From assembly GCA_963931925.1 (NCBI GenBank), contig OZ007569.1, positions 18,520,482-18,584,481 of the forward strand: DNA of 64,000 nt. Reading direction: 5' to 3'. A program made the position numbers and the translations under genes. The notes beneath the pieces are model-generated. The model searched no databases, was not told the DNA's origin, and saw nothing but the letters and a program-made list of their open reading frames with translations. How positions within the stretch are numbered: position 1 is the stretch's first letter; every line of letters begins with the position of its first letter. This document shows positions 5,007-42,900 of the stretch, one piece after another. This DNA comes from Onchidella celtica (Eukaryota; Mollusca; Gastropoda; Systellommatophora; Onchidiidae).

Positions 5007-5011
5007 GTGAG

Positions 5012-6254
5012 TGTCGCGATGTGGGTTAGATGGGGATAATTCGACTGACACTCTTTCGAGGTCCGCTCCCACAATCGACGAACACACAAAAAAAATACTT
5101 GCACTCTAAAAACTAAATAAATCAATTGCTTTGATTTTTAGCAGAACTGTAGGGCAGTTTAATTACAGGAATTAATGTAACAAATATAATTATAAATATA
5201 AATATCAATTCAAAGGCAACTGAATCTAACTAATGAAACTACAGCTTTCTATAAAGACTAACTTATTCACTCTAACTACTTGCAGGTCATATGAGTTATA
5301 TGCCAAATAGAATCCGCGCACGTGGCGACGGATATAACAGTTTAAATTCTATTAATTCAATGAGACATGTTATGATATGGACATTTCCTCTAGACACGCC
5401 ATGGAGAATGCTTGTACAACCATGCGTTGTCTGGCGGTAGCTCTGAAACTGTCTTCAAAAGTAAGTAGAACGGTTCACTTTCATCATTACAAATTAGTAT
5501 GGACTCTCACCATGCGGCCCTCATTGGGAGTGAGAGCGCTGGATGTAAACGCTGTGGGTTTATATCAAACCAAGTAGCTTAGGCTCTGGAGCTTTAACTC
5601 ATGGCGCTCCTCACAATATGGACTGCTCAACTGCGTCTCTTATGTCTCTCATCTGGCCGAGGACTATCGCCGTCCACCTCGTAAATGGATTGTCTACATG
5701 TGGCATCTATCTAAGCTCTGCACGGGTTTAAATATACTAAAGCTATGTCTCGACCTTCCGTCCAGATTCATACATTTGATTGGTGCAACCACCTCTAGCT
5801 CAGCTGCCGAACCGAGTTATTTTAAGTAACAGCCCTACGCAACGACCTTGGGTCGACATCAAAGGTCGAATCACTCAAGACAATAAAATGTAATTTTATA
5901 GCAATAAATTCTTAACATGTTCAAAACCCCGAGCTTTTACTCTGGATCACGGATTTTCTGTACGTCAACAGACGTCTCAATAACATTTAATTCCTACTCA
6001 CCCCTTCCCTCTCTACTAAACCTAGTTCAAAACACGAGATATAAAAAGTGCTCAGTCATGCACACCTACGCTGTCCGTCTATCCTTCCCCACACCTTCTG
6101 TCTATCTATTAGGAAAAAAACTGTTCAAAACAAATTGTTTACGAGACCAAGTTATGCTGGCTCGCACAATAATTACGTTTGTAAAAATTACTCACTGCTC
6201 TCTCACAAAAATTTACTCAGTGGAAACATTTATGAATCAAATCTGTTCTTGACA
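5012..6254 (+). mobile_element. Solo LTR (1,243 bp), copy A
   Basis: The element starts TGTCGCGATG and ends TTGACA, giving the TG...CA termini of an LTR, and is flanked by identical 5-bp duplications GTGAG (5007-5011 and 6255-6259). A second copy lies at 36454-37712, and the two align along their whole length with many substitutions and indels. No gag-pol sequence and no primer-binding site follows. It is therefore a solo LTR left by recombination between the two LTRs of a retrotransposon whose superfamily I cannot assign. Orientation is set by convention only. Confidence 0.8.
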
Positions 6255-20020: not shown

Positions 20021-22310
20021 ATGGCTGAAGCAAGCAAGAAAAAAGACAAGATAGAATTCATTGCGTTTCTTGTCGATAGACCGGCCCTGTGGAGAAAGCA
20101 GGATCGTGATTTTTCCAACAGAGATGTCAGAGAGAAAGACTTCCTTGAGATTGCCGAAGCCATCACGGAATCAGGTAAGTCTGTTTTAATTATCTATCAT
20201 TTACTATTTAGATCCATTTCGACACAAGACACAAACAAATAAAAATGCTGCTAGACCTAGTCTATGTGTTAATTGTGTGTGTTTGTGTTATTATATTTAT
20301 GTATATGTTTATTAAATGTATACCTGTGTAGATGTATGTATTTATAGGTGGTGTGTATATATGCATGTGTAGAAGAGATAAAGATTATTTATATTAGTGC
20401 ATATGTGTGCATGTGTGGTGGAGATGGAGTGGGGGGGGGGGGGTAATTTCACAACATGAATTATGTCATTTATTTTATTCTCAAAGTGATGTCACTGCCT
20501 TATCATGACGTCTTTTACGTCACATTGTTCCCTGACGAAGCCAAATCAGGCGAAATATTGGCTTCAACAGATTGTAGTGTTTTTTTTTTTTTCTGTTCAT
20601 TTATATATATATATATTCTCAATCAGATCTATATGTAGTCCTCCTGCCACGAGACAGAACCAGGACAACAAAGTACTGGGCCAGTTGGTTTCTGATCTGT
20701 GTTGCATGTTCCCTTGGTCGGCCTGTACGCCCTTGTTTGGCGGTCCCAGCACACACTCCATTGACATCACGCACTTGAGAGTCATCCCAAACTGGGGTGG
20801 TGTCTTTGTCAATGTCTCTGCAACCCTCATGCTCGATGTAGCATTGTGCAAGGTGACAGCAGCTAAGACAATGTTTTCAGCGTTGGTCACATCAGTACTG
20901 ATACTTGCTTTTAACACACGCCACTTGGCTGCCAAAACACCAAATGCACATTCGACACAGCGTCTTGCTCTGGAATGACGGTAATTGATTTTGGTTTCAT
21001 GTGTTGAATTTGTACTGAAACGCGGTATAAGATACGTCCGGAGTGGATATGCAGAATCCCCCAATAAATAATATGGGAGTTTGATGCCAGAATTTGGTAA
21101 AGTTGCTCCCTCAGGTAAGTTTGTAGCATTTTCTTCGAGTAATTTCTTAATCTTTGATCTCGCAAATATTCCCCCGTCACTTTCTTTACCATACGCTCCA
21201 ACTTCAACACTGAATTTCAGTTGAGGATCAGCGACGCCCTGGAGAACAATAGAAAAATGTTGCTTGTAATTGAAGAACATGGAACCGGAGTTGTTTGGGG
21301 CTTCTGTGGCTGTTTTCCATCAATAGCTCCGATGACATTGGGAATGTTGCAGACCGAATTGTACATATCAGCTACCCGCAGAAATATATCTCTGGTGGGA
21401 TCCGGGACGTACACTGGGCTTAGTGTGCGCCATATTGCACTGGTTGTTTCATGGATGATTTCCGAAACTGTAGACTTTCCAAGGCGAAATGAGTGTGCCA
21501 GTGATCGGAATGACATCCCAGTGGCGAGAAAGCTGTCAGAAAAAAAATACACGTTATTTCATATTGTTGTTTGGATTTGTAAGTCTTTTCATGTCAATTT
21601 AGTAAAGAAGATTTTCATGCTTTGCTTTTTATACAAGTGTTATAATGATTTTGTTTCAGTTGACTGGTGTCGCAAGAAACTCAAGTACTAGAAAGACAGG
21701 ATGAGGGAAAATTGTAAGTGACCTCCCGAAAACTAAAAGTGGCCAACCTGCTTTCGAAAAAAGGCAAAGTAACTTGGAAGTATTACCAAGCAATAATGCT
21801 CTTTATGAAAGACCAGTTTGTGGGAAGAACAATGAACGGGGACGCTGCACTCTCCTACAAGAGAAGGAAACGAGGACAGTCGTCAACCTCTTCCTCAAGA
21901 TGGAGACGATTACGCCGAAGAACATGACTCTGTAGACAACCTGGAAAATCATTCACTTTCAGGACCCAGCCCCAGCCCCTCGTCCTCAGCAGCATCATCA
22001 ATTGCCGCGGGAGCAAAACGATGTACATCCAGGAACAAGAGAGCCCGAATGGAAGAACAATTTCTCAATATTGAGAGAGAGAAAGTTGAAAATATAAATT
22101 CATGGAACCACAACCCAAAGATGAATGGGACATGTTTGCCTCATCACTCGCCTGCGATTTGCGAAAGATTAAGGATCCTTATACTGCATTAAAGTTGAAG
22201 GGTGAGATAAACAAACTTGTGAATGAAACTGTATTACACAGTCAATGCAACCTCCACCACCTTTCCCGTATGACATGTACGGGAATACAAACATCATGCA
22301 GCTTTGAATA
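20021..22310 (+). pseudogene. MADF/BESS (Myb/SANT-like) protein of Harbinger element, broken
   Basis: Exon 1 (20021-20174) starts at ATG and encodes an MADF domain with the motifs FLVDRPALWRK and FLEIAEAITESG. It ends at a clean donor TCAG/GTAAGT. The acceptor TTTGTTTCAG precedes exon 2 at 21660, which continues in frame as VDWCRKKLKY, the end of the MADF helix bundle. A TAG at 21690 and further stops and frame changes then break it. Downstream a lysine-arginine/serine stretch (about 21850-21960) and a BESS-like motif (DEWDMFASSL...KGEINKLVNET, about 22116-22240) survive. Such proteins bind the transposon ends together with the HARBI1 transposase and help it enter the nucleus. The premature stops make this copy a pseudogene. 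Confidence 0.75.
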
Positions 22311-31200: not shown

Positions 31201-31206
31201 CCAATA

Positions 31207-31242
31207 CGCGGGCGGTATTGCATACAGCCGTATCTCAATTTT
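31207..31242 (+). repeat. Left terminal inverted repeat, 36 bp
   Basis: Identical, inverted, to 36102-36137 and preceded by the target duplication AATA. Confidence 0.9.
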
Positions 31243-31384
31243 GGGCTTTTTGGGTTTATTTCATATACGGGTACTTTAAAGTCTCCCACGTCTTTCTAGC
31301 TGGGTCTCGCGGCTGTATCTATTTAAAATACGATTTTATTGAGAAAACTGTAAAAGTTGTAACTTAACTTATCTGGAAACTGTT

Positions 31385-31470
31385 ATTGAATACAGCCGTA
31401 TGTTGACATACGACCTCTGAGTCAATAATATTTAGTTGCACAGAGACGTATGTGCTACATACGGCTGTTT
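31385..31470. promoter_or_regulatory. Left subterminal palindromic repeats
   Basis: CGTATG-TTGA-CATACG (31397-31412) and CGTATGT-GCT-ACATACG (31447-31463) are perfect palindromes. Both are joined to the ACAGCCGTAT-type motif of the terminal repeat. Such subterminal arrays are usual transposase-binding sites; binding here is inferred. Confidence 0.6.
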
Positions 31471-31656
31471 ACAATAACACTTAGCTTACATTGCGGTCCG
31501 CACTCACTTGATCGGAAGAACACTTAGGACTCTATGCCATTGACATTACATGTATGCGCCCTTCTTTTTAGGGACTGAACTCATGAAGTGCTCAACGGCG
31601 CGAGTCATAATTATTCCACCACCCAGTTTCGATTCAATGTCGCGGGAACTCAGCGC

Positions 31657-31695
31657 TATAAATAGCAAAGCGAAACCGAAACCGAAAGCGAAACC
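31657..31695 (+). promoter_or_regulatory. TATA box and four phased GAAANN motifs
   Basis: TATAAATA (31657-31664) lies about 170 bp upstream of the split start codon. Eight bases after it come four contiguous 6-bp units GAAACC, GAAACC, GAAAGC, GAAACC (31672-31695), near the expected transcription start. GAAANN in 6-bp phase is the recognition pattern of IRF transcription factors. That it responds to such factors is inference. Confidence 0.5.
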
Positions 31696-31826
31696 AATGA
31701 TGATACTGTCGATTTGACCGTGACATCACAGATTTTTGTTTTCGTCTCGAAGACAGTGAAAGGAAAATGTTTTGTTGACAGTTGAGAGACACTATTTGGA
31801 GAAAGCGTTTTGCAGATACAGATACG

Positions 31827-34800
31827 ATGTAAGTAGCGGGCATGATTATGCCTCTATTGTTGTTGCTGTTGTTGTTGCTGTGCTTTTCTTGTTTATTCTA
31901 TATCGTTTTCTTTCGTCAAGCTACTACGGTGTGACATGGTAGGCTTAGCCTTCTAGATCTAGTACTCAGTGAGACACAGCAGCAGTACTTCCATGTTGCT
32001 CATAATCATTTGAATAAAGCGTGCTCCCATATTGGGATGATTAGATTAGTTGATTTAATCTTATTGGCTTTGCAGTTGGGTGCTAAATCGTACAACACGA
32101 AATGATATTATTTCATGCTTCTGCACCCACACTATTTACAAAATAATTCATAACCGTCTCTAATTCATTTTTGTTTTCTTTCTCTCCGGATATAGGCCAT
32201 CTGTGCTCGCCAGTACACACCAAGCCTCACCGGTGTTTAAGTCACCCGGACGACAGTGCATGTACAATGCCGTGGAAAGCATAATTATGAACGAAACTAC
32301 TCCAGTTCTTCAATGGAACACTGGTGTTCTTGATACAATTCTAAAACATGGCGATTGGTTGTGCACAAACGCTCAACGTGAAGGGTTCCCCTTAATAACT
32401 GATATTCCAACTCAAATGTGGATCGGTGGACAACAGTACAATCTGTCATTCGGCGAATCCGAGGGTGGCTCCCTTACTTATCTGGATGACATATTTCCTC
32501 TCTTCAAAGACAACATCCCAAAAGTCAGAAAATATGGCGTTCTCACGCTCGGAACAGGCTCTCCAGCATATTCATGTGCTGTGATAAAAGATGACAATGC
32601 TTCATACTACATCTTTGATCCTCATGCAAGGGATAATCGTGGCATGGCATGCCCAGATGGCAAAGCTGTGCTAACACCACACCGTGACATTGACGAGCTT
32701 ACCCAGTTTCTGAAATCGCTCGTCGAGTCTCTCGCAACGGGCAACATATATGAACTCACACCACTTTCGGTTTCTCCAGCAGGAGAGCAGCATGGCGTCG
32801 ACGAGACTCTGCTTTGTGATGAGGCAGCGTCGTTTTCCTCTTCCGACGATGACATTCCCCTATCATATTACAGGGATCTTCAACAGCAGGTGGAAATCAA
32901 ACGTGCGAGCAAATTAGAAGCTGAGAGAAAACTGAAAGACGTCATCGTGTCTGAAACGGAGCATGAAGAGAATACATTTGGATACATTCCTTGTGATGAA
33001 GCTGACGGTGATGATGACTACGAACCACCCCAAAAGCGACATAAGAAACGTAAATCAATTCCCTGTGGTGTGTCTCCAGTCCACGAGGAAGCCCCTCAGT
33101 TCACACTTATGGATATGGGCACCCCAAGCAGCAGTCATACTCATGCAACTGATAATTCCATACTATTGGAGTTAAGTAATTCTTCCTTTTGTTCACCACA
33201 AGCTGATCGTGGTCGTCGGAGACAGCGGGACCCCGCTAACTGGGCTTGCAATGTTGCAAAACGTAAACGCAATGCTGGAGAACAGTACGAAAGCAGACAG
33301 TCGAAGAAGGTGGTTAGAGCAAGAGAGATTAAATACGGATGTGGTGACACGTGTAGAAATCAGTGCAAGAGAAAGGTGACAGAAGATCAGCGAATGACAC
33401 TGTTCACAACGTTATGGCAGCTTGGGTGCCTTGCAAGACAAAGAGATTTTCTTTGCGGAATGGTGAAGGACAAACTGAAAAAACAAAGCACCACCGGAAA
33501 AGAATCAAGAAGAAAAAGAACATTTCAGTGGTTTTTTGTTGTGGACGGCAACCGGATTGAAGTATGCAAGAGATTCTTCCTCGACACATTGAACATTAGC
33601 GATAAAATGGTGATCACTGCCCTCGCTAAAAAGACAGATCTAGGAACAACCTCACCAGAGAAGAGAGGGACGCACAAGAATAATCAAAATGATAAAGAGG
33701 ACGAGAAAACACTTGTGAGAGGACACATTGAGAGTTTCCCTGTGACCGAGAGCCATTATTGCCGAAAGGAGTCCAGAAGACAATACCTGAGCGGTGAACT
33801 GAGTGTTCAAAAAATGTACGATTCCTATCTTGATGATTCCAAAGAAAAGGGAAGAAGCCCGGTGTCTTTGTCTACTTACAAAAATATATTTTATCAGGAG
33901 TACAATCTTGGTTTCTTCAAAAGATCAAAAGACAGGTGTGATTTTTGTACCGCATTTGAAAACATGGCTGACAAGGAGGAAATGCGCCCAGAGTTTGACA
34001 AACATCATGAGATGAAAAATCAAGTGAGGAACTTAAAAAATGAGGACAAAATGATGGCACAGAATGACTCTGAATTTTCGTCGGCTGTATTTGACCTTGA
34101 GGATGTGCTGGTTACCCCAAAAGGGTCGCCAAAAGGATTCTACCACAAGAGGAGACTAAACACGTACAACCTGACTATATATGACTATGGCCAAGGTCTT
34201 GGAATAAACAATATTTGGAATGAAAGAGTTGCAGGCCGGGGGTCAAATGAAGTTGGATCATGTCTATTCCATTACATGGCGGAACAGGCAAAGCTGGGAA
34301 AGAGGTGTTTTTCTTTTTATTCGGACTCATGCGGGGGTCAAAATAGAAACAAACACATTCTAGCATTATTGTGGTATGCAAGTAGTGTCTTCAACTTGAC
34401 AGAAGTTCAACAAACATTCTTCGTCAGTGGCCACAGCCAAAATGAGGCAGACGGCGTACACTCTCGGGTTGAACAGACATCTGCCAAAATAGACATTTTT
34501 ACTACTCCACAGTGGGCTTCTTGCATTAGAAACGCAAGAAGGAAACCACCTCGTTTTCAGGTTAATGAACTCGACTTGAAAGACTTCTACGATATAAAAG
34601 AAATTTCAAAACGGATCAAGAATTTTGACAAAGACACTAACAGACAAAAAATTTCGTGGCTGAAAGTGAAAAGGATCAGAATAAAAAACAGCAACCCAAA
34701 TGTCATTGATATGTCTTATGACTACGATAATGATAGCTGGTTTCAGTTGAGCTTCTCTCAACGAGGTCGTCGTCAGCTTGAAGTCCCAGATCCACAACAA

Positions 34801-34917
34801 ATTGTTTTAAAACAGCTTAGAAAAGAGTACATTCCTGTTGATGAGCATAAACTGAAAGACCTCGACGATCTATGTGAGAAAAATTTGATTCCAAGTGTCC
34901 ATCACTCATTTTTCTAA
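31827..34917 (+). CDS. Fusion protein: viral-type cysteine protease plus DDE transposase
   Basis: Joined from 31827-31828 and 32196-34917. The donor ACGAT/GTAAGT and acceptor CCGGATATAG/G unite AT+G into the start codon, and an in-frame TGA lies upstream at 31776. The product is about 907 residues. Residues 8-180 resemble the herpesvirus tegument-type USP fold: Gln10 in HQASPVF, Cys22 in GRQCMYNA, and Asp142 and His144 in YIFDPHARD. Residues about 200-370 are acidic then basic and probably disordered (nuclear-localisation-like KKRKS, KRKR). A Cys cluster (YGCGDTCRNQC, residues 382-391) precedes TEDQRM...QRDFL, as in Sola-type transposases. The DDE core shows FDLEDV (Asp634), YSDSCGGQNRN (Asp711) and GHSQNEADGVHSRVE (Asp753/Glu760). 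It should cut and join the element's ends in the nucleus. The role of the protease (for example removing ubiquitin-like marks) is unknown. The frame is intact. Confidence 0.85.
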
Positions 34918-34959
34918 GATTTGCGTTGTTAAGGGTTTATTTTTCAGCAATATCCGATG

Positions 34960-35030
34960 ACCTCTGTGCGAGAAAAACATTGATCCCAAATGTCCATCAC
35001 CACTTAAAGTTTTGTGTCGTTATGATCCCC
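34960..35030 (+). repeat. Duplicated tail of the transposase gene in its 3' UTR
   Basis: The stretch GATGACCTCTGTGCGAGAAA to about 35010 repeats, with differences, the last 50 coding bases (34863-34917) plus the first bases after the stop. Translated, it gives DDLC...LIPNVHHH against DDLCEKNLIPSVHHSFF in the protein. It is an approximately 100-bp tandem duplication that spans the stop codon. Confidence 0.65.
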
Positions 35031-35693
35031 ACTTTTTGTTGCTCAGTTCGAACATAATGTTTCAAAAAATCAAATCCTTTTTTCAGAATATCTTAGCTCT
35101 GGTATGTTTTGGATTTCACGTCTTGTCATTACGCCATTGCGCCTTGTCGCATGATAAAATCATTTTGTAGCGTTATTCATTGATAATTAGCGTTCAAACT
35201 ACATGTACTTCCTAAACCTGGTGATTATTCATGTTGCAGGTCTTTTATGTTTGTTTTTATTTCATACTCCTTTTTATTATGAACATTTTGCTAGATCAAA
35301 TGATTCAGTCTTGTATTCACACGTGAAAGATGGTGCGGATACAGGCTTAGTTATATTAGAACAAACGTTCAGTCCAATGATCTTCTTTCAACTTTATTTA
35401 AAAAAAACAATTAATCACTACATGTATTTGCAATCAAGTCTGACTTCAATAGAAGTCCATTATTGGCCACGTGATTTTTTCCAAATCGATTAGATCCTTT
35501 CACTTATATGTTTGGAAAAATGTTTTCATTTTTATATTAAAGAACTTTGATATTACAGTATTCTTACATCATTACGTATTAATTGTGTTGTGTATTATTT
35601 AGTTAATAAAAGTTCAACTTTGACGTCCTCTATGTTACACTCTTCTTTCCTGTAAACAATCATGTTTACTGTTTGAGGGTATATTGAAGGAAG

Positions 35694-35930
35694 TTGCATA
35701 CAGACGTAAGTCTTCATCAACAATATATACAGCATCTTTGGCATGCACAGTATCTCAATATGAAAAAGCTGTATCTCCAGATACAATTATATGCAACTGG
35801 CATTTCCCCTTCACATCTGCAGTAACTCGTTATGAAAAAGCCGTATCTTGAGTTACAGCTTTATGCAATTGACGATACAGAGTAAAATTCGGATGTATGT
35901 TTACTTACGTCTGTATTCGATAACTATATA
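35694..35930. promoter_or_regulatory. Right subterminal inverted repeats
   Basis: CAGACGTAAG (35701-35710) is inverted at 35904-35913. GTATCT...AGATAC and GTAACTC...GAGTTAC pairs lie between, along with TATGAAAAAGC-GTATCT repeats at about 35757 and 35831. These match the style of the left subterminal region and probably bind the transposase. Confidence 0.6.
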
Positions 35931-36101
35931 TTAGAGTACAATAGTTTTAAGTGCTCCAGAGACAAAAGTATGTACGTTATAGACACGGTGACATAGGGAC
36001 AGGCCGAATCGTGTTTCAAGGGACAAACGATCAAAGCGCCAGACCAATGTGTTCACAATGAAGCGAGATATTCAGTTTTTTGCTTCTCCTGAAAAGTTGC
36101 T

Positions 36102-36137
36102 AAAATTGAGATACGGCTGTATGCAATACCGCCCGCG
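36102..36137 (-). repeat. Right terminal inverted repeat, 36 bp
   Basis: Perfect inverted copy of 31207-31242, followed by AATA. Confidence 0.9.
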
Positions 36138-36141
36138 AATA

Positions 36142-36453
36142 ATTCTGCATCACATTCAATAAGGACACAAACCCCCACACCGCCGCGATATGGGCAATCT
36201 AGTGCATCAGCGTGGCTTAATATGATTGGGCAGCGAGCCACCAGAATGGCGCTTACACCAGCCCTGTTTTTACCCCTAAATGTATATATATGTGAAAGTG
36301 CCATCTTCATTTATCGTATCATCATCCTTGGTTCTTTCCAATCTTTGATTTTTTTCCCCCTCGTCTGTCGTGATCACCATCCCTTGAGGCTTGTTTGTGG
36401 CAGGATGTATCCCCCCCCCCTCCCTTTTCCTGAAGCGGACACGGGCGATCGAC
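36142..36453. other. Spacer between transposon and solo LTR
   Basis: About 310 bp with no recognised feature. Its AT-rich and poly-C segments code for nothing evident. Confidence 0.4.
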
Positions 36454-37712
36454 TGTCGCGATGTGGGTTAAGGGGGGAATTCGACTTACACTCTTACGAG
36501 GTCCGCTCCCATAATCGACGAACACACTAACAAAAAAACTTTCACTCTAAAAACTAAATAAATCTTTTGGCCGAACTGTAGGGCCAAGTAATTATCGTAA
36601 ATAACAATGATAAATATAAAAATATCAATTCAAAGGCAACTGAATTTCTAACTAAGCTGTGGAACTAAAGCTTTCTATAATAATGGTAACTTATTTGATC
36701 TAACCATTTGCAGCTCATAATATGAAGTTTAAATACCAAAAAGGCTCCGCGCACGTGGCGACGGATAATACAATTTAAATTCTATTACATCTTATTTCCA
36801 ATGAGACGTGTTATAATATTAATTTTCCTCAGTACACGCCATGGAGAATCCCAATCACACGTGCTCGTACAAAAAACTGTGCGTTGTCTGGCGGTAGCTC
36901 TTCAAGACTTCAAAAGTAGCTGGAACGTTTCAATTTCATTATGGCGAGATCTAGACTATAGTTAGTATTTGACTCTCACCATGCGGCCCTCACTAAGAGT
37001 GAGAGCGCTGGATATACTCGCTGTGGGTTTCATAATTATGCCAAATCAAGTATGCTTGGGCTCTGGAGCTTCAATCTACACAACGCTCCTCATAAAATGG
37101 ACTGCTTAACTGCGTCTCTGTCTCTCATCTGGCTGAGGACTATGGCCGTCCACTTCGCAGATGGATGGTCTACATGTGGCCACTACCTAAGTTCTGCACG
37201 AGTTTAAATACTAAAGTCACATCTGCAACCTTCCGTCTAGATTCCTACATCTGATTGGTGCAGCCACGCGGGCTCAGCCTGCAGTATTAGATCTAATTTA
37301 TTCTCGTCACGGCCTTGCGCCAAAATCAAAGTCAATTTTACCTACACAATAAAATTTAAAATGCCAAAAATAACTATTAAAATCTAAAAGCTTTTCTACT
37401 CTTGTGCACGAATTTCTGAACGCCAACTAAGCGTCTCAATGAAACTACTACCCTTACTCGCCCCTTCTCTTCCCTTCTAAGTGTTAATCAAAATCACGGG
37501 GTCGAGAACTACTCTGTCATTCCAAGTTATGCTATTCGTCTGCCTCGCCCCACCTTCTCTCTATCTATAAGAACAGTGTTTCAAAACAACTGTTTACGAT
37601 AACAGCTCAAGGACAAATTACGCTGATTATATAATCAAGATCGTAAAAATTAAAAAATTAACTCACTGAAGTCGTGACCTAGCACGGCATTTATAATAAT
37701 CTGTTCCCGACA
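36454..37712 (+). mobile_element. Solo LTR (1,259 bp), copy B
   Basis: The second copy of the LTR at 5012-6254, beginning TGTCGCGATGTGGGTTA and ending TTCCCGACA. Conserved blocks include CGCGCACGTGGCGACGGAT, CGTTGTCTGGCGGTAGCTCT and GACTCTCACCATGCGGCCCT. The flanking five bases (TCGAC and GACTA) do not match, so the target duplication is eroded or the copy was rearranged. No internal retrotransposon region accompanies it. Confidence 0.75.
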
Positions 37713-39974: not shown

Positions 39975-42900
39975 ATGACCACTGAAATGCATCATAGAGA
40001 CTACGGCGATAGAGGCAGTGAATTCATCGTTATGCACTCGCCGCTAAAGAGCCGGGCACTGTTTGTCATTTTATTTGGTGTCATACTGACATTGGCATTT
40101 TCATTTGGGATGCATCTCCTAGTAAGTTAATCTGGTTATCTCCAGAACCCTTGAAAGGGACAGGTGTTCCCCACCACCCATTAAAATGGTTTATGTTGTG
40201 GGTGTTCCAATTTGCCAGGGAGGCTAGGCACTCTACATAACCTTGGTTCGGCTGATAATTTTCTCTGAATCATTATTTTATATTGTCTATACTATTTATA
40301 GACTAGCATTCAGCATGATGATCAGATTTAAAACTTGGATCTAGATTCTATGACTGTACAGGGGTGATGAAATCTTAAAATTTAAACTAGTCCGCAGGAC
40401 TACTCCACAGGAAAATCAGCTAGTCCGCAGAAATTTTTACTAGTCCGTCCACTTTGAAAATATAAAAGAAACAAAAGGCAGAGTAAAGTTTTAAAAAAGT
40501 GTGTTTTAATTGACTGAAATGACAAGGGAATGAAACACAGATGACTATAAGCATTATTAATTTATTGCATGAAGATCTTCAAATACTGTACTGGTTTATG
40601 GCTAGAATAAACATTATTGCTATCTGGTAAGAAAACAAATTCTGATGTATTCAAACTATTTAATCAGAGTAGACTGTCATCCAATGGCATTGGATGAGTC
40701 TACTCTGATTAAATAGTTTGAATATATATGCAGCCTCAAAGTCATCCAGCTGTTTCTGGCAGCGGCCTCTCCTGTGACAAGCCCACTGCAGTTCTGCCTC
40801 AGAGTCCTCTTCTTCTTCCCCCTCTTCCTCTGTGAAGGTCTCCTCCTCTGGCTCTTCAGTCTGGGCTTCTGCTGTTTGGCCTGTGGCTGCTGCTCTCTTA
40901 TATGAAGTCTTTCTGCGAGTCTTCCCACTCCTCATCCAGTGCTGCACTGAAGGCAAGGGGTCAAACTCACTAATGCCTGCAGTGTGCATAAGGACAGTCA
41001 TGAGGTCAGACAGGGTGCCTGTGTGGAGAGAACTTCTCCAGTCAGACTTGATCTGCTTCATGCAGCTGAAACCTCTCTCACACTCTGCTGTGGAGGAAGG
41101 CAGAGTCAACAGCAGATCAACAAGAAACAGCAAATTTGGACATGTGTGGCCAAACTCTCTGTTGAGTTCGCTGCCTCTGTGTCTGCTTTCTTCTTGTCAC
41201 GGTTCTCCTCGCATGTTTTACTCCACGTGTGTCCCGCAGACTTTTCATGAGTGGTCACACTTTCCAGTTTGAAAATCGCTGATCCGACCACAAATGGAGA
41301 GCTTTTCACTTTCCCCGTAGCAAAGCGTTGACAGAAAGTACAATACATTTTCTGTCCGTCGAACTTCAGCCATGTCCGACGCTCGCCTGTCGACGCATTG
41401 ACGTACCATGTTTCTTGAAAAGATCGGCTACGTATTTTTTTATCATAATGACTGTCTCTGGATTTCTTCTCCTCGTCAGTTTTTTTCTTTTTTGGCGGCG
41501 TGGCGTCACCAGATCGTGTTAGGAAGCGATCCATCTTAGATCTAGTCTAGAACAAGAAACTTATTTGTAAGTCTGTGCGTAAAATCTGTTTGACCGAGAC
41601 GGGAGGAGAGCTGATGCCCGACCTCATGGCGCTACTAAGCAGGAAACGGTCAAGCTTCACCGCGATTTTAACATCGTCCGTCGGACCGGCAGTCGGCGCA
41701 AATTAGGTCGTCCGCGGAAAAGTTTAGTCGCCTGGGGCGAGCGGACTGGCGATTTCATCACCCCTGCTGTATGAGTTTAGATCAAGAATGTTTGAAATGC
41801 ATTGCTTTCAAGTGAATCGTGATTCTAGATCTAGATTTTCAGTTCTGCAGATCGATATGGAATCACCATCTCAACAATAGTTTGAATTTATAGGCCAAAT
41901 AATGTTTGAACTGATGGAGAGAGGGAGGTTTTGACTTGGAGATTATTGTATTAGGAGGATCTGCCATTCAGCAGTTTGCACCTACCTAAAAGGAGCGAAA
42001 AAACGTTTTGAGTATTTTTACGCATTTGCTCTCTCACTGTTGTCACGAGACGAGTTAGTGAACTGTTCTTAATAACCAATCAAGCAGACCGACCAACGAA
42101 CAGATGGAGTGAATTTTCAAATCAAACGCGCTATTTAATTCACAATGAGTTTCATGGTGTGCTTTTGTCAAATATTGCAACTCATTTAGGCAAAATGTAC
42201 AATCAAAGCAAAAAAATAAAGACGTGCAAAAATCCCTATCGAGGACTTGGCGATTAATTTAAGAACCCCCTTTTTCTAGAACTTAACTAATGATAATTAA
42301 AAAGTCCTTGTCAACAGCTGTTCTCCTCATTGACACTTTCACGTCTCCATGGTTCAAACGATGATCTTCAGGGTTCAAACGATTCACAAGGCCCTCGTAG
42401 ATAAAGACTGTCTCGAAGGGTACCCATGCCTTCTTCAAGACCTCCAAGCTTCAAACGACAATCTTCAGGGTTCTAACGATTCACAAGGCGATTTCACTCA
42501 CGCCCTCATAGAAAATTAACACAATGGTTTCCCCACGGTCATTTCATGCAGTCAAAAACTGGAGGGGGAGCACGTGGTGAGCCTTTCCTCCTATTTTATA
42601 CCCCGGAGGGTTTTTTGCACACGGTACCATTTTTAACCAAGTCGTGTCTATCTTTTCACGCTCATAAACAAGTTTAAAATCATGCTTTCCCTCGCCAAGT
42701 TTTTACCCCCCCTCTATTCGTGGCGTACAAGGCCACCAACCTTACTCGTGACACTGTTCAAAAGCCACGTGTGATAACATTTCAAATATTAAAATATAGG
42801 AGCAGGCACTTTGGCTGTAAATTTTCTGAACATAATCTGTGTTTAAAGTGTAAATCTAGATCAAGATCTGTGTAACACACACACATATACTGTCAGTGTG

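Follow-up and report, generated by a model that had tools for sequence, protein, structure and literature searches.

The window analysed here, i.e., the whole 64,000-nt stretch of Onchidella celtica contig OZ007569.1, contains a 4,931-bp element at positions 31207-36137 whose terminal inverted repeats (TIRs), target-site duplications of a fixed 4 bp and DDE residues make it a cut-and-paste DNA transposon. Its one protein joins an N-terminal domain of the VTD class, i.e., a herpes-tegument-like deubiquitinase, to a DDE-type transposase core of the DUF7869 type, and our preferred reading, moderately probable when taken as a whole, has the VTD deubiquitinate in cis the transposase complex of which it forms a part. 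The presence of a tegument-type protease and a DDE transposase in a single protein had been proposed in an original prediction on this DNA, and is upheld by profile searches, homologues, further genome copies and selection on the VTD.

The VTD and the DUF7869 core

The profile search suggested in the original prediction recovers two modules. In Pfam the window protein matches Herpes_teg_N at residues 4-146 (E=2.1e-5; 24.7 bits, just under the cut-off of 25, which four relatives exceed) and DUF7869 (PF25273; E=2.6e-10), and at E-values up to 10 these are its only matches, with neither a Rep-helicase nor a Gypsy-integrase-type core. A profile made from six N-terminal domains (those of five fusions and of protein P0053) was searched against solved structures, and matched the zebrafish Helitron VTD 8ADD (E=1.1e-16), three large tegument protein sequences, the Waddlia VTD 8ADB and M48 2J7Q (E=2.6e-5); the herpesvirus tegument structure 6PPB scored E=3.6e-10. 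Up to an E-value of 1, seven distinct sequences were matched and none was a non-VTD. In this search the domain aligns with the Helitron type along its whole length. A homologue search with residues 1-200 alone found none, probably on account of a word-filter limit, as queries with the full protein and with the alignment did find the fusions.

Residues are numbered either from a spliced start (907 residues) or from a GTG start (904), the former numbers being the latter plus 3. The features of the protein are:

32196..34917 (+): principal coding exon, of 907 codons if the spliced start is used and of 904 from GTG 32203
32196..32790 (+): VTD (herpes-tegument-like deubiquitinase) domain, residues 1-199, by profile similarity
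32221..32223 (+): Gln10, presumed active-site residue, invariant in 10/10 aligned VTDs
32257..32259 (+): Cys22, nucleophile, invariant in 10/10 aligned VTDs
32617..32625 (+): Asp142-Pro-His144, the VTD Asp-x-His motif, invariant in 10/10; motif defined in PMC9741609 (cited here, as below, from part of its text)
32791..33192 (+): acidic linker with an SDDDIPLS motif, poorly conserved
33193..34914 (+): transposase core of the DUF7869 type, with the Cys-rich N-terminal module C380/C384/C388 (904 numbering)
34093..34095 (+): first core Asp, D631 (904) or D634 (907), in 54/54 cores
34324..34326 (+): second core Asp, D708 (904) or D711 (907), in 55/55 cores
34432..34473 (+): H-x5-D-x2-H-x3-E block ending in the core Glu, E757 (904) or E760 (907), which is E in 54/55 cores and D in one

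The ten aligned VTDs, which include that of the DUF6570 protein P0053, all agree at 14 positions, and these comprise the Q, C, D and H of the active site. The Gln10, Cys22, Asp142 and His144 that the original prediction had assigned to a tegument-type protease are thus conserved throughout, in a domain whose profile reaches 8ADD, the tegument proteins and M48. For Gln10 an active-site role is assumed from work on M48. The zebrafish Helitron VTDs cleave ubiquitin and are dead when Cys, Asp or His is mutated; in DrT1-VTD2 all three are required and the Asp-x-His motif has been shown (Erven et al., PMC9741609). As to specificity, the Helitron-type VTD cleaves K48, K63 and partly K11 chains, and NEDD8 in part (PMC9741609). 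From the sequence profiles, residues 1-199 would be expected to take up a papain-like fold, and the window VTD is very likely a deubiquitinase.

The DDE-type core that had been placed in the C-terminal half is corroborated by the near-invariance of D634, D711 and E760 (907 numbering) in up to 55 cores. Additionally, D750 and H753 (904 numbering) are each kept in 55/55 DUF7869-type cores. From the acidic triad and the mobility of the element, an RNase-H fold may be supposed for this core, for which a comparison by sequence profile with solved structures gave no convincing relative. A PHROGs search gave no match better than E=0.049, and scans of viral and genome contigs, which used short peptide patterns, brought up no relative of the fusion; an origin of the fusion in a prokaryote or virus is accordingly unsupported by these pattern-based scans. 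In the literature searched for DUF7869 no paper naming it was found. Membership of the element in Sola is not claimed: the shared trait is the 4-bp target duplication, and 8 of the 13 exact duplications of the window family contain G or C, unlike the AT-rich sites reported for Sola2 (AWWT and similar; PMC3627910).

As a separate observation on the linker region, an acidic motif, [DE][DE]xPL (DDIPL at residues ~219-223), lies ahead of the core and occurs also in relatives without a VTD (10/54 sequences), four times in P0002.

Ends, start codon and copies of the window family

The perfect 36-bp inverted ends and the flanking AATA described in the original prediction are both confirmed. The TIRs are identical at 36/36 bases, and their first 22 bases, searched for with ≤3 mismatches, occur at two sites in the window, which are the two TIRs themselves (0.00 expected in shuffles). 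The motif GCATACAGCCGTAT at ≤3 mismatches has 10 of its 11 window matches inside the element, as against 3.01 expected window-wide; two of these ten are the TIRs and two overlap each other. The subterminal copies of the motif are, from their placement, probable transposase binding sites. With the joined flanks as the query, no empty copy was found within the 64,000-nt window, to which this search was confined. The features outside the protein are:

31207..36137 (+): whole element, 4,931 bp
31203..31206 (no strand): left target-site duplication AATA; an exact 4-bp duplication also in 12/16 other two-ended copies
36138..36141 (no strand): right target-site duplication AATA
31207..31242 (+): left TIR, 36 bp, beginning CGCGGGCGG
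36102..36137 (-): right TIR, 36 bp
31388..31401 (+): subterminal copy of the inner TIR motif (GAATACAGCCGTAT), predicted transposase binding site
31459..31472 (-), 35696..35709 (+) and 35905..35918 (-): further subterminal motif copies, predicted binding sites
31657..31664 (+): core promoter candidate TATAAATA, predicted from sequence
31827..31828 (+): first two bases of the predicted start codon, G32196 supplying the third after splicing
31829..32195 (+): putative intron, 367 nt, GTAAGT...ATATAG, with consensus borders
33781..34546 (+): segment missing from the ~4.12-kb non-autonomous subfamily; holds D, D and E
35605..35610 (+): AATAAA, polyadenylation signal candidate

The intact gene of about 907 codons in the original prediction stands as a single long open reading frame of 904 codons from GTG (32203-34917), while the larger figure requires an inferred intron to provide an ATG. 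Splicing of A31827-T31828 to G32196 would yield a 907-residue protein starting MPSVLASTHQ; the Mercenaria gene model P0003 starts MLSVKASTHQ. Without splicing, the upstream start (31827-31832) would read ATG-TAA. Among the 20 further copies or fragments fetched from the 1.14-Gb assembly that contains the window, the donor site is present in 17 and the acceptor AG is kept in seven; in nine a genomic ATG replaces the acceptor, with the same reading frame and start (eight exactly, and L020 with a 2-bp gap), and the remaining four have no match at this position. The window copy would hence either splice or have lost its ATG, and the family appears to have two routes to one start codon, such that some copies would need no splicing. 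The intron as a feature common to all related families is not supported: the loci L050-L052, described below, have a plain ATG and no matching donor, and L049 is ambiguous.

These copies also bear on mobility. An exact 4-bp duplication flanks 13/17 two-ended copies, the window copy included, and it is therefore not due to chance; the sequences are AATA, ACCA twice, AAAT, ATTT, AGGA twice, GGGT, TCCA, TCTT, TAAT, ACAA and ATTA, and the two-ended copies without one are L020, L025, L026 and L027. The DDE segment is seen in seven fetched copies, and the whole frame is kept in three, namely the window copy, L010 and L011 (the last with a genomic ATG); L012 has one stop near the C-terminus, and the frames of L009, L014 and L026 are broken. 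Nine fetched copies (L015, L017-L023 and L028) form a subfamily with a common deletion equal to the segment listed above, and L025 and L027 are remnants of ~660 bp resembling miniature inverted-repeat transposable elements. As the deletion subfamily lacks D, D and E and still reached nine copies, it has presumably moved in trans.

Divergence among copies was compared between coding sequence (element positions 990-2479) and non-coding sequence, in pairs that are not independent of one another. For the six full copies, divergence is lower in the coding than in the non-coding part in 15/15 pairs (0.47-1.14% vs 0.80-1.52%); for the five deletion copies, coding divergence is the higher of the two in 9/10 pairs (0.62-1.44% vs 0.52-0.85%). 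The low divergence suggests recent activity of the family. Within the VTD, the ratio of non-synonymous to synonymous polymorphism (pN/pS) is 0.51 in the six full copies (five non-synonymous and three synonymous changes) vs 1.24 in the five deletion copies (12 and three).

Other families and their phylogeny

A genome search with the VTD gave 150 scored matches of 208 candidates, where one broken copy can yield two matches, and for 24 of these 150 the surrounding open frame is ≥917 aa long. Seven loci (L049-L055), taken from seven of about nine groups formed by manual sorting, were read, and all seven encode a VTD together with a DUF7869 core. Thus the search for other copies that the original prediction had recommended yields, in addition to the 20 copies of the window family, a recurrence of the VTD fusion in four more families with long open frames, represented by L049, by L050, by L051 with L054, and by L052. 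L049 is 5,110 bp long, with ends CGCGGGTGG and the duplication GTTT; L050 is 5,253 bp long, with ends CGAGGGCCG and the duplication ATTT, and its family also includes L055, whose frames are broken and whose duplication is ATAT, as well as the decayed L053. No clean end pair could be found for L051, L052 or L054. Four proteins outside this genome carry both domains, and a further DUF7869 homologue, P0021, has the tail of a VTD but no complete one. Separately, 52 of the 150 matches are restricted to VTD residues 59-190 and have open frames of 187-222 aa; L053, the decayed L050-family relative named above, is the only one of them that was read.

The VTDs compared are 33-44% identical and retain all catalytic residues. 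The ratio of non-synonymous to synonymous substitution rates (dN/dS) of the VTD is 0.14 between the window and L049 and 0.13 between L050 and L051, with dS at about 3 and so near saturation; for the close copies L051 and L054 it is 0.46, and the other pairs are saturated. The VTD is under purifying selection.

In a 25-row tree of the cores, the VTD-bearing proteins fall in one group (support 99/96), which also holds the VTD-less P0002 and P0004. These two were considered as members of the window's own group that lack the domain, and rejected as such, since both are sister to VTD-bearing families, P0004 to L051 and P0002 to L052, and the start of P0004, MQVSVDAIR, is an internal stretch of the VTD-bearing L051 and L054. 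They look like shortened gene models, the case being weaker for P0002. A constraint grouping the six VTD rows without them was rejected in an approximately unbiased test (p-AU 0.0007), as expected if both belong inside the VTD group. The pairs common to the VTD and core trees are the window with L049, P0001 with P0003, P0005 with P0054, and L050 with L051; P0021 joins the window and L049 in the core tree only. Every complete member read in the window protein's group has the VTD.

A separate group of the core tree holds two proteins with an OTU domain on the N-terminal side of DUF7869, P0020 (Littorina) and P0024, which pair with each other and have the OTU motifs DGNCFF/DGDCFF and HYDG. The simplest history for these patterns would be one capture of the VTD followed by joint descent, plus a separate capture of the OTU domain. 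The location of the OTU domain on the same side in two other DUF7869 proteins points to ubiquitin itself, rather than to one protease fold, as the common theme. As a further observation, P0053, a DUF6570 (PF20209) protein that lacks the DUF7869 core, has an N-terminal VTD, perhaps another mobile-element setting.

As regards the surroundings of the element, a ~700-bp repeat lies at 5009-5665 and at about 36451-37141 (77% identical overall, 88-90% in blocks), one copy beginning ~300 bases to the right of the element. The window further contains PIF/Harbinger-type transposase frames at 20597-21558 (-; DDE_Tnp_4, E=2.7e-24), hAT-type transposase pieces in two overlapping frames at 40660-41546 (-; Dimer_Tnp_hAT 2.8e-06, zf-C17orf113 2.6e-09) and a partial U2 snRNA match at 1-71 (-; 64.7 bits) that ends at the window edge.

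Action of the VTD and known systems

Several observations weigh against a VTD that serves its transposase as a deubiquitinase. The protease is not needed by DUF7869 transposases in general, and the VTD marks one branch of them: of 150 scored matches among 306 candidates in a genome search with PF25273, 40 adjoin a VTD match when matched by coordinates; in five of the remaining 110 that were read (L056-L060, frames of 769-903 aa, two of one family) the core is present with no VTD and no Pfam protease listed; and among 55 DUF7869-type database homologues four carry PF04843 and two PF02338 according to precomputed Pfam assignments. The position of L052 is unsettled in the VTD tree. The whole-frame pN/pS is 0.62 in full vs 0.75 in deletion copies, and pN/pS within the family rests on few sites. 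As a single-sequence query the window domain finds no VTD structure even at E-values up to 10, and of the two acidic residues of DrT1-VTD2 that bind the ubiquitin tail, D376 and E377, the former position is Thr in the window protein, with the latter acidic. Finally, the start codon of the window copy is unsure, as it depends on the inferred intron.

The abundance of protease-free relatives is what one would cite for the view that the N-terminal domain is a chance-captured passenger with no function for the element. The majority of the DUF7869 relatives found are without a VTD, and in a base-by-base comparison of five deletion copies, all had a VTD put out of frame by the same 11-bp deletion. 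However, catalytic residues are all kept in domains as far apart as 33-44% identity, VTD dN/dS is 0.13-0.14 between families (even if 0.46 for the close copies L051 and L054), and the domain lies in long open frames in the 24 genome matches mentioned above. On the strength of these frames, the five families, the agreement of the trees and dN/dS, chance capture is rejected, and we give it almost no credence. The original prediction had named relatives lacking the N-terminal region as the sign of an accidental capture; such relatives do exist in this genome (L056-L060), but they do not extend to the window's group, in which all complete members read have the VTD.

A more defined role would follow from the alignment of the VTD with the Helitron type, on which basis a K48/K63 deubiquitinase is to be expected where the transposase sits. 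In the proposed mechanism, recognition of the 36-bp ends and of the repeated subterminal motif by the transposase would be followed by excision of the element and by its insertion through a 4-bp staggered cut. Meanwhile the VTD, as part of the same protein, would most likely strip the transposase, and proteins at the donor or target site, of ubiquitin (mainly of K48/K63-type chains, and perhaps of NEDD8), so that the transposition complex might escape ubiquitin-dependent extraction and degradation by the proteasome until strand transfer has finished. For Helitrons, Erven et al. proposed just such a protection of transposition proteins from the proteasome (PMC9741609), and for the OTU and Ulp1 domains of Ginger, Bao et al. 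suggested an action on DNA repair (PMC2836005, likewise cited from part of its text). The fusion in cis and the exchange with OTU favour protection from the proteasome over an effect on repair, without proving it. Taken separately, the claim that the VTD acts in cis on the transposase complex is a tentative one, to which we accord somewhat less than even chances.

Alternatively, the VTD could act in trans on the host, in whose germ line it would deubiquitinate factors of silencing or of DNA repair (histone H2A/H2B and repair proteins). Domesticated VTDs are expressed in the germ line, and an escape from limits on transposon inheritance was suggested by Erven et al. (PMC9741609); the suggestion of Bao et al. 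on repair points the same way (PMC2836005). A factor acting in trans, however, needs no fusion, whereas in the five families read the VTD and the transposase share one frame, as would fit action at the bound transposase. We regard a role in trans as unlikely, though a serious contender. A third possibility, that the VTD is no deubiquitinase but a self-processing peptidase that cuts the linker to free the transposase, could draw on the poor conservation of that linker (13-28% identity where alignable) and on viral deubiquitinases often processing polyproteins too (PMC9741609). It is set against the activity of known VTDs on ubiquitin (PMC9741609) and the ability of OTU to occupy the same side of the core in relatives, and appears highly improbable.

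Deubiquitination of the transposase complex in cis, our preferred reading, invites a wider one: that one DUF7869 branch made a deubiquitinase part of its transposition machinery; that a protease was acquired at least two times (VTD once, OTU once), in parallel to Helentrons and two herpesvirus families; that ubiquitin removal is a recurrent weapon of large mobile elements; and that such elements, beyond Helentrons, are a possible source of the herpesvirus tegument deubiquitinase. This is weakened by the presence in the same genome of protease-free DUF7869 families with long open frames, and we put it forward as a speculation more apt to fail than to hold. In any case, a class of transposon that moves by a different mechanism has also acquired a herpesvirus-type deubiquitinase domain and retained it under selection, and some jumping genes may thus be equipped to counter the protein-disposal system of the cell. 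The alternation of VTD and OTU in herpesviruses, Helentrons and DUF7869 transposons renders a role of ubiquitin in transposition directly testable: protease-bearing and protease-free families (L056-L060) in one genome provide a natural control, and, with ends so nearly identical, an assay of excision could compare proteins that have or lack the catalytic Cys. DUF7869, an uncharacterised Pfam family, also gains a concrete role as the core of mobile elements.

The original prediction knew of no described cut-and-paste transposase with this domain. This holds for the VTD in the literature searched, where queries on transposons with Herpes_teguN found none and no report of a VTD on a DDE-type cut-and-paste transposase was found; but it has to be qualified by the VTDs of Helentrons and the OTU and Ulp1 domains of Ginger1. 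As far as the literature was searched, the novelty lies in a VTD fused to a DDE-type cut-and-paste transposase whose element has defined ends and duplications, in five VTD-DUF7869 families within one genome, and in the exchange between VTD and OTU inside a single transposase family. An earlier sighting of a VTD on such a transposase may lie in the cnidarian VTDs that Erven et al. mention as fusions with transposon-associated domains, left unspecified in the part cited here (PMC9741609). According to the same source, VTDs occur in herpesviruses as well as Helentrons, and OTU in Helitrons as well as alloherpesviruses; the cited part of PMC2836005 reports both OTU and Ulp1 for Ginger1, Ulp1 also for Mutator elements, and a transposase_11 domain with a C19 peptidase next to it.

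Among these systems, the invertebrate DUF7869 (PF25273) proteins share the core with its conserved D, D, D-x2-H and E; unlike the window protein, those found are mostly without a recognised protease. With the herpesvirus large tegument deubiquitinases (PDB 2J7Q, 6PPB, 7ET3, 6W2D) the domain family is shared by profile, as is its placement near the N-terminus of a long protein, although its partner there is a capsid-attached tegument protein and here a transposase. Ginger1 (PMC2836005) likewise combines a DDE transposase with a ubiquitin/SUMO-type cysteine protease, alternates between two protease types, and has TIRs and short target duplications; it differs in its Gypsy-integrase-type core, C-terminal proteases, CCGT-type targets and, in the part of the source cited, the lack of a VTD. 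The Helentron VTDs (zebrafish DrT1/DrT2; PMC9741609) resemble the window VTD in protease family, in the order of Cys and then Asp-x-His, and in being carried by a transposon, and Helentron relatives likewise alternate VTD and OTU (PMC9741609). However, Helentrons have a Rep-helicase and move by a rolling circle, whereas the window element has a DDE-type transposase, TIRs and 4-bp duplications.

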